From: Aquabacterium sp. CECT 9606
GTDB taxonomy: Bacteria > Pseudomonadota > Gammaproteobacteria > Burkholderiales > Burkholderiaceae_C
NCBI RefSeq assembly: GCF_918741295.1
Contig: NZ_CAKKNB010000004.1
Location: 793,830-857,829 of the forward strand
Length of the DNA: 64,000 nt
Direction of reading: 5' to 3'
The notes beneath the pieces are model-generated. The model saw only the letters and a list, made by a program, of their open reading frames with translations, made no database searches and was not told the DNA's origin. Shown piece by piece: positions 2,650-6,243 of the stretch. Within the stretch, counting starts at the first letter, position 1. Every line of letters begins with the position of its first letter. Both the position numbers and the translations under genes were made by a program.

Positions 2650-2700
2650 ATGACACCGCGAACGACGACCACCACCACTTCGACCTCCACCGAGGTCTAA
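2650..2700 (+). CDS. Threonine-rich leader peptide of the thrS attenuator
   Basis: A 16-codon open frame, MTPRTTTTTTSTSTEV, contains nine threonines, six of them consecutive. It ends 38 bases before an intrinsic terminator that itself lies 24 bases before thrS. This is the layout of ribosome-mediated attenuation: a shortage of charged tRNA-Thr stalls the leading ribosome on the Thr run and favours the antiterminator. AGAAAGG upstream can act as a Shine-Dalgarno. The resemblance to the E. coli thr operon leader is in composition only; there are no Ile codons here. E. coli thrS is known to use translational autoregulation instead. Confidence 0.85.
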   Translation: MTPRTTTTTTSTSTEV

Positions 2701-2707
2701 AAGGCTG

Positions 2708-2750
2708 GCCGCTGCTTCGATTGCTTTTCTCCCTTCCTAAAAAGCGCGGC
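2708..2750 (+). promoter_or_regulatory. Antiterminator of the thrS attenuator
   Basis: Bases 2708-2712 plus 2714-2717 (GCCGC, bulged T, GCTT) are complementary to 2742-2750 (AAGCGCGGC), which overlaps the left arm of the terminator. The two structures are mutually exclusive. Pairing was worked out by eye; no folding energies were computed. Confidence 0.6.
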
Positions 2751-2767
2751 TCACCCCGCGCTTTTTT
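2739..2767 (+). terminator. Attenuator terminator before thrS
   Basis: An 11-bp hairpin (AAAAAGCGCGG, six-base loop, complement) ends in a T6 tract, 24 bases before the thrS ATG. It lies after the leader peptide and on the path into thrS, so it must be conditional for thrS to be expressed. Confidence 0.85.
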
Positions 2768-2791
2768 AATGGCTCAACAAACAGGTTCACC

Positions 2792-4711
<1,920 letters not shown>

Positions 4712-4822: not shown

Positions 4823-5371
4823 ATCGCTAACTTTTTTGACCGCCGGACGCCCAATGTTGAGCGCAAGCACCGGCTGAATCGTGAGATCACTGCGCTAGAG
4901 GTCCGGTTGAACGGGATTGAGAACGAGCCTTTGGGCATCGTGAGCATCCAGGACGCCTTGCGCATGTCTGCCGAAGCCGATGTGGACCTGGTTGAAATTG
5001 CCGCTGCGGCTGAGCCGCCGGTCTGTCGTCTGATGGACTACGGCAAGTTCAAATACCAGGAGCAGAAGAAAGCTCACGACGCCAAGCTCAAGCAGAAGGT
5101 CATCGAAGTCAAGGAAGTGAAGTTCCGTCCGGGCACCGATGAAGGCGACTATCAGATCAAGATGCGCAATTTGCGCAAGTTCCTGGAAGACGGCGACAAG
5201 GGCAAAGTGACCTTGCGTTATCGGGGCCGAGAGATCACCCACCAGGACATTGGTATGCGTTTGTTGGAGCGTGTGCGTGATGAGCTCGCCGATGTGTCGG
5301 TGGTCGAGAACATGCCCAAGCTTGAAGGTCGCCAGATGATCATGATTCTGGGTCCGAAGAAGAAGAAGTGA
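4823..5371 (+). CDS. infC: Translation initiation factor IF-3, with an AUC start codon
   Basis: Binds the 30S subunit, prevents 50S joining and checks start codons. The first ATG/GTG/TTG in frame is at 4907, which would delete the conserved N-terminal segment [16 protein letters not shown]. That segment begins at an ATC (4823) preceded by AAGGAA at ideal spacing, with an in-frame stop at 4793-4795. I therefore place the start at ATC, giving 182 residues, the usual length. Non-canonical starts of infC are known (AUU in E. coli) and allow IF-3 to repress its own synthesis. Both domains are intact: N-domain with [14 protein letters not shown]-domain with EVKFRPGT and [11 protein letters not shown]. 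Confidence 0.93.
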
Positions 5372-6153: not shown

Positions 6154-6214
6154 TCGGCTGAATTTTCAGCCGAGCTTTCACAAAGGCCTGACCCTGGTGT
6201 CCGGCCTTTTTTTT
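6154..6214 (+). terminator. Tandem hairpins before pheS (terminator or attenuator)
   Basis: First a 9-bp perfect hairpin (6154-6173, TCGGCTGAA and complement). Then a strong intrinsic terminator (6182-6214: AAAGGCC and GAC arms around a short loop, then T8). Only 29 bases separate the T tract from the pheS ATG, too few for a full promoter. The structure is therefore either leaky or conditional. The only small frame in front (6141-6161, MLKRFG) has a single Phe codon. Confidence 0.75.
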
Positions 6215-6243
6215 CGACGCAATATGACGAAGAACGCGACGAA

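Follow-up and report, generated by a model that had tools for sequence, protein, structure and literature searches.

The threonyl-tRNA synthetase gene (thrS) of Aquabacterium sp. CECT 9606 is preceded by a leader that is very probably a ribosome-mediated transcription attenuator, sensing charged tRNA-Thr and controlling thrS. A preliminary description of this DNA had proposed a threonine leader-peptide attenuator with competing antiterminator and terminator before thrS; the comparison of genomes supports this proposal, and the leader is conserved in most of the relatives examined. Judged from sequence, the mechanism is of a kind already known; for this group, we found no description of it.

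Organisation of the thrS leader

The window, i.e., the whole stretch of 64,000 nucleotides that was analysed, carries thrS (2792-4711, 639 aa, the putatively controlled gene), infC, rpmI, rplT, pheS, one further gene and pheT in this order on the same, forward strand, to which all features below belong; gene names were taken from the translations. The assignment of thrS comes from the list of open reading frames and from tblastn, in which the ThrRS of the window gave matches in all 191 sequences examined (window included). The protein is 99% identical to ThrRS of Leptothrix sp. PB2.3.27, and groups beside this organism and Sphaerotilus in a FastTree phylogeny of 80 ThrRS proteins with many weak forks.

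Upstream of thrS, the sequence TAAAAT at 2592-2597 is the probable -10 element of a predicted leader promoter, which would place the transcription start near 2604. It was absent from the listing of a sigma-70 promoter scan of the window; of 44 leaders from the named set of relatives introduced below (window included), 18 have the motif TA[AT]AAT 80-35 nt 5' of their ATG (median position -50; 0.3 in shuffles). The putative ribosome-binding site GAGAAAGG (2631-2638) lies in a tract rich in A and G that is conserved in 45 named-set leaders, at positions of about -24 to -11 relative to the ATG. It is followed by an ultraconserved core, GGTTATGACACCGCGAAC (2646-2663), which extends over the leader start codon and codons 2-5 and was delineated from the alignment of the 45 leaders and a scan of the family.

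The leader peptide open reading frame (2650-2700; ATG at 2650, stop codon TAA at 2698-2700) encodes MTPRTTTTTTSTSTEV, with nine threonines in 16 codons. The best short frame in the 300 nt before thrS, with any start codon permitted, contains 10 threonines; none of 1000 dinucleotide shuffles exceeded seven. A scan of 628 short window frames that considered the first start codon only listed no Thr-rich frame, because the same frame is also open upstream from a TTG.

Four segments of the leader can pair in alternative ways. Segment 1 (2659-2671) lies inside the Thr codons and is a partner of segment 2 in the minimum free energy structure of 2640-2775 and in partition functions; the small hairpin GACCTC-CACC-GAGGTC at the end of the leader frame (2682-2697) belongs to the same predicted minimum free energy structure. 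Segment 2, GCCGCTGCTT (2708-2717), just 3' of the stop codon, would form the left arm of the antiterminator: it pairs with AAGCGCGGC (2742-2750) with one bulged U, and its duplex with segment 3 amounts to -15.4 kcal/mol. Segments 3 (2739-2749) and 4 (2756-2767, with the U tract), defined by folding and a terminator search, are the left and right arms of the intrinsic terminator AAAAAGCGCGG-CTCACC-CCGCGCTTTTT (2739-2766), and 24 nt separate base 2767 from the thrS ATG at 2792. Coordinates and sequence here agree with three statements of the preliminary description: a 16-codon frame with nine Thr codons, six of them consecutive (codons 5-10), an intrinsic terminator 24 bases 5' of thrS, and a stretch at 2708-2717 able to pair with 2742-2750 as an antiterminator.

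The terminator hairpin folds with -15.9 kcal/mol (z -4.7), a value equalled by none of 200 shuffles. It was not listed by a consensus terminator scan of the window, apparently because the stem extends into the T tract. The whole leader (2640-2775) has a z of -3.4, with one of 200 shuffles as good. The antiterminator fold of 2700-2752 (-12.4 kcal/mol) was matched by 102 of 200 shuffles and is thus not significant in the window alone, so its support is the comparison of leaders.

Distribution and conservation among relatives

The named set comprised the best 80 of 584 relatives by scan; one of them (L053), which lacks upstream sequence, was left out, giving 79 evaluable relatives, and two entries that are the window itself (L001 and L101) were excluded from locus counts. 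A related leader stands before thrS in 57 of the 79: 44 possess a leader that starts with MTPRT and 13 a diverged leader that keeps Arg-Thr (R-T), hand-picked from a scan with free third positions and exemplified by MFFPLARTTTRNFRPMSR in Achromobacter, MIQAPRTTTASERQ in Ralstonia and MFMIARTFTVVKVRR in Pandoraea. The other 22 have no recognised leader. Mapped on the ThrRS tree (FastTree, many forks weak), leader states require 15 changes vs 30.8 for shuffled labels, and an old leader that was then lost several times fits this distribution.

Among 250 genomes of the window's family, that of the window counted, 188 carry the core GGTTATGACACCGCGAAC with at most one mismatch, once each; the reversed-pattern control matched one of the 250. 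Family genomes without the core are mostly small (46 of 62 have at most 3.4 Mb by rounded size). A 33-nt pattern matched six of 200 genomes spread over the order; it also misses the window, where the spacer has one additional base. All 60 order genomes searched gave a ThrRS, and the 30 order loci most similar to the query, the window among them, were inspected for an ATG frame with CGA-AC(T/G) and at least two Thr codons: 11 have one, vs 0.13 expected from shuffles, and 19 have no such frame. These order-wide leaders include MFKRTTTTRISR (L215) and MQRTSTKTITYLG (L208); one of the 11 matches (L222) looks spurious. The core motif was also used to fetch 110 further loci, 35 from the order and family scans (window excluded) and 75 from further scans, mostly one per genus, and thrS lies downstream in all 110. 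Altogether 155 MTPRT leaders were analysed, five of which occur twice because two collections share their genomes, so that 150 are distinct; in the 155, thrS lies 113 to 193 nt from the leader ATG.

The codons that follow MTPRT are strongly enriched in threonine in the leader frame only. Across the 155 leaders, 27% of them are Thr codons (379 of 1423), vs 1.5% in frame +1 and 3.2% in frame +2, and base shuffles of the same codons gave 110 ± 9, with a maximum of 142. For the 150 distinct leaders the values are 26.5% (364 of 1371), vs 1.6% and 3.4% in the other two frames. Threonine is 8-18 times commoner in the leader frame than in the others, and from this bias we infer that the leader is translated. 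The number of Thr codons per leader varies between two and nine (two in eight leaders, three in 30, four in 51, and five or more in 66). The conserved Thr run that the preliminary description expected in relatives was not found, as only the window and one other locus (L002) have six consecutive Thr codons, and we rejected the run as a conserved signal; what is conserved is the enrichment in threonine, together with the MTPRT core. Leaders of the other three genomes of the window's genus (L098-L100) have eight, six and five threonines.

The core is conserved at the nucleotide level. Bases -4 to +13, GGTT-ATG-ACA-CCG-CGA-AC, are nearly invariant in the 45 named-set leaders (window included), in a set whose selection pattern fixed part of codons 1-5 and left positions -4 to -1 and the third positions free. 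We quote this conservation from the named set because the 110 motif-fetched loci are biased to an intact core. The codons are ACA in 45 of 45 leaders, CCG in 45, CGA in 42 (CGG in three) and ACT in 39 (ACG in six). In the thrS genes of the same loci, CGA accounts for 3.1% of Arg codons, and ACA and ACT for 5.2% and 5.4% of Thr codons. CGA is also present in all 13 diverged leaders and ACT in 12, in this hand-picked group found with free third positions. Neither the invariant core nor the pairing of segment 1 with segment 2 had been part of the preliminary description.

A terminator was detected in 151 of the 155 leaders, and the other four show hairpins by eye. Pairing tests were applied to 146 leaders, after removal of nine (four without a detected terminator, and five identical or with too short a spacer). 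The duplex between the stretch after the stop codon and the left arm of the terminator has a mean z of -1.4 against shuffled stretches, with at most five of 100 shuffles as good in 59 of 146 leaders. Own antiterminator partners beat swapped partners in 100 of 146. In 122 of 146, the first base of segment 2 falls between positions -3 and +8 relative to the stop codon. Adjacent to the CGCGG core of the antiterminator duplex, the next base is paired with its partner in 78 of 108 leaders, mainly as C-G (35) and A-U (33), vs 48.2 ± 4.6 for permuted partners (maximum of 66 in 2000), a permutation result inflated by shared descent. The 108 leaders are conditioned on a paired core, 43 of 151 having been dropped (no CGCGG in the arm, no fully pairing spacer pentamer, or identical). 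Two other antiterminator positions gave no clear coevolution in the same 108 leaders (68 vs 64.3 for the following base, 83 vs 81.4 for the other side). Of the conserved stems and compensatory changes by which the preliminary description proposed to check the attenuator, the terminator stem and coevolution at one antiterminator position were observed, and coevolution at the two other positions was not.

Before segment 3 is made, partition functions predict that 0.452 of segment 2 is paired with codons 2-9, vs 0.21 in shuffled leaders; the pairing is above that of shuffled leaders in 111 of 146, and the window has a value of 0.71. A simpler duplex test of segments 1 and 2 was not better than shuffles (mean z -0.3, n=146).

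A Polaromonas locus (L015) keeps most of the core around the place of the leader start, with the start codon gone, likely a recent loss of the leader. A tRNA-Val (GAC) gene is seen by eye shortly upstream of thrS, on the same strand, in 20 of 29 order-wide loci (L195, L197, L198, L200, L201, L204, L205, L208, L210-L213 and L215-L222), so that a leader there would be part of a tRNA-thrS transcript.

Predicted switching and competing explanations

Transcription, translation, termination and the threonine response of the leader are deduced from its sequence, and we propose that they would be coupled as follows. RNA polymerase would start near 2604 and transcribe the 16-codon leader. With Thr-tRNA scarce, the leading ribosome would pause on the Thr codons and cover segment 1 (2659-2671), leaving segment 2 (2708-2717) to pair with the emerging left arm of the terminator, and polymerase would continue into thrS. 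With Thr-tRNA plentiful, the ribosome would reach the stop codon and cover segment 2, the terminator (2739-2767) would form and transcription would stop. The additional ThrRS made under scarcity would restore charging, closing a feedback loop on the synthetase itself. Without translation, segment 1 could hold segment 2 before segment 3 is made; at equilibrium the antiterminator would still form.

When folded with a ribosome mask that covers the A-site codon together with 20 nt behind it and 14 nt beyond it, most leaders are predicted to switch in the classical way. Mean pairing of segments 2 and 3 (n=146) was 0.53 with the ribosome on codon 5, 0.51 on the last Thr codon and 0.115 on the stop codon, vs 0.37 for ribosome-free RNA. 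It was higher on codon 5 than on the stop codon in 133 of 146 leaders, in 99 of them by more than 0.3; 39 of 146 show little predicted switching (a difference below 0.1), and in four the stop codon position pairs more by over 0.1. Codon 5 raises pairing by more than 0.05 above ribosome-free RNA in only 72 of 146, and the step of the switch that is predicted most clearly is the block that a ribosome imposes when it stands on the stop codon. Masks placed 12 and 24 nt beyond the stop codon reduce the pairing to 0.01 and 0.006, and a mask 12 nt before it causes no block (0.52); since masks beyond the stop codon block more than the stop codon itself, the stop position appears adequate, not optimal. 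In the window, about nine segment 2:3 pairs are expected with the ribosome on codons 5, 8, 10 or 14, and 2.3 when it stands on the stop codon; ribosome-free RNA gives 7.5. Given the 7.5 pairs expected without a ribosome, basal termination in the absence of translation is not predicted. With the right arm transcribed, the terminator of the window is more stable than the antiterminator in every state computed, so that antitermination would have to be kinetic.

Sensing of threonine alone does not predict the near-invariant third positions in ACA-CCG-CGA, which is the main unexplained feature of the leader. Pairing with segment 2 may account for part of the core invariance, but not for GGTT-ATG-ACA. 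CGA is read by inosine. On a tentative reading, possible but in our view doubtful, GGUU-AUG-ACA-CCG-CGA-AC(U), whose rare codons CGA and ACU return in the diverged leaders from other families, is a dedicated pause element that heightens the ribosome's sensitivity to Thr-tRNA to an unusual degree, with the result that no more than two or three Thr codons would be needed; the pause could come from CGA in the ribosomal P site beside a Thr codon in the A site, or from an RNA hairpin over the start codon.

The same rare codons, and the 38 of 155 leaders with only two or three Thr codons, could also be expected of a general sensor of translation speed, responding whenever ribosomes slow down, be it through drugs, starvation for rare codons or a shortage of ribosomes, and not especially to threonine, as the conserved CGA, ACA and ACT are all rare in these thrS genes. 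Such a sensor is improbable: it would have to accommodate the 8- to 18-fold excess of threonine in the leader frame and the presence of thrS behind the core in all 110 fetched loci.

Near-invariance of the core bases, which extends to third codon positions and to the four nucleotides 5' of the ATG, is what one might expect if ThrRS regulated its own expression as in E. coli, by binding a GGUU-AUG-ACACC hairpin with the start codon in the loop and controlling leader translation or termination; a GGU/ACC hairpin is indeed predicted around the start codon. This alternative is nonetheless very unlikely, as inspection of the predicted hairpin by eye shows no anticodon-like loop (NGU), and the diverged leaders of Achromobacter, Bordetella and Pandoraea keep the R-T codons without the hairpin sequence. 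Moreover, the terminator, its spacing from the stop codon and the frame-specific threonine enrichment, to which attenuation by charged tRNA-Thr assigns a function, would have no role.

A hairpin with a T tract shortly before thrS is kept in 15 of the 22 leaderless named relatives (e.g., L013, L021, L028, L038 and L043), in several of which TAAAAT precedes it and aceA lies directly upstream by eye; in these relatives it could represent either the terminator of aceA or the remnant of an attenuator. That the hairpin in general is merely the terminator of an upstream gene or an mRNA 5' hairpin, with the Thr-rich frame incidental, is barely credible, as the upstream gene in the window is apparently on the other strand and as 155 leaders combine the core with the frame, the stop-codon spacing and the pairing.

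Downstream genes and relation to known systems

The preliminary description had further suggested that infC-rpmI-rplT are perhaps under threonine control through thrS, and this is not supported as it was written. A putative internal promoter for these genes (TTGCGA, 17 nt, TAAAAT; 4517-4545) lies in thrS and was listed by a promoter scan (one found, 0.8 expected). In the 3'-terminal part of thrS, 76 of 78 loci share the sequence TATAAAAT, and TTG stands at the -35 place in 39 of 78; of 110 sequences tried, 32 were dropped from this count, in which the protein motif was unmatched or that part of the gene was not covered. The protein fixes most bases of TATAAAAT, but not all: its Tyr codon is TAT in 77 of 78 loci (26% TAT in the thrS genes of 81 sequences), its Lys codon is AAA in 76 (29%), and the next Ile codon is the rare ATA in 46 (3.5% in thrS genes). 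According to the part of the Cupriavidus metallidurans study that deals with these genes, a mapped infC start there has the promoter TTGCGTAACG + TATAAAATTC, matched at the same spacing by TTGCGAAACG + TATAAAATCC of the window, and thrS and rpmI have separate mapped starts as well (PMC9045368). We therefore reject full threonine control of infC-rpmI-rplT; with a conserved promoter inside thrS, read-through and hence threonine control of IF3, L35 and L20 would be partial at most.

By eye, infC seems to start at a non-ATG codon, ATC (4823-4825), which AAGGA precedes by a few bases; in the list of open reading frames, the earliest start given for this frame is TTG at 4907. Between rplT and pheS the window has a hairpin with an eight-T tract (about 6180-6222), and T-tract hairpins occur there in many of 30 sequences. 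No Phe-rich leader before pheS was seen by eye in these 30 sequences. The 400 nt before the sole homoserine dehydrogenase match in the window's genome, which closely follows another coding region, showed no Thr-rich leader.

Several known systems resemble the leader in part. The thr operon leader thrL of E. coli and its relatives (Rfam RF00506, Thr_leader) is a Thr-rich leader with alternative antiterminator and terminator that senses Thr-tRNA and Ile. With the window leader it has in common a Thr-rich peptide, an antiterminator/terminator switch and sensing of Thr-tRNA (for the window, a deduction), but it controls thrABC biosynthesis and senses Ile too, whereas the window leader precedes thrS. 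In E. coli pheST, a leader-peptide attenuator governs an aminoacyl-tRNA synthetase gene; there, likewise, the synthetase gene stands behind a leader rich in cognate codons and a terminator, but the amino acid is another one, and the window leader has the conserved rare-codon core R-T. Feedback of ThrRS or Thr-tRNA on thrS is achieved by other mechanisms in E. coli, in which ThrRS binds a tRNA-like operator for translational autoregulation, and in Bacillus, in which a T-box before thrS reads uncharged tRNA directly, without a leader peptide. Membership in RF00506 was rejected (13.5 bits vs a gathering score of 55; E = 10), as was membership in the T-box family, with no Rfam T-box match at gathering in the window nor at E ≤10 in 2300-2900. 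In the Rfam scan of the window, the leader had no match at thresholds.

The nearest system found is thrL-thrS of Streptomyces lividans, for which a Thr-containing leader peptide before thrS was proposed from RNA-seq; in the relevant passages of that paper, the leader MKRVRPFLETTPGFVPAR has two threonines, one hairpin and no U-rich tract, and termination was unclear to its authors (PMC8079986). It differs in being actinobacterial and in having a leaderless transcription start, and no likeness is seen by eye in what that paper gives of the leader. Histidine leader peptides precede hisS* and hisZ in bacilli, where another hisS copy has a T-box, so that a leader peptide likewise stands before a synthetase gene and its paralogue, for histidine and in Firmicutes; the accessible portion of the same survey of premature terminators names threonyl-tRNA synthetase once, for E. 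coli autoregulation (PMC2965389). The sections seen of an actinobacterial comparison have the Pfam threonine leader peptide merely among domain counts (PMC3388012), and those of a Burkholderia cenocepacia transcription start paper (PMC4603805) and a Herbaspirillum sRNA paper (PMC7011215) contain nothing on a thrS leader. We found no description of a betaproteobacterial thrS leader peptide in the open-access literature, as far as its searchable excerpts go, and four leader peptide strings searched there as text gave no match.

Overall, the results suggest that many Burkholderiales regulate ThrRS by a leader-peptide attenuator, unlike the E. coli operator or the Firmicutes T-box. The attenuator would account for the conservation of a non-coding block upstream of an essential gene, and its 18-nt core is a signature that finds the leader. 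The broader suggestion that threonine governs IF3, L35 and L20 is corrected, because their genes have their own conserved promoter. The unexplained invariance of the core opens a question to experiment: with how few cognate codons, and in what context, a tRNA can be sensed. If the core were indeed a dedicated pause element, it would represent an amplifier of tRNA sensing that is based on a codon pair and maintained in much of a bacterial order.
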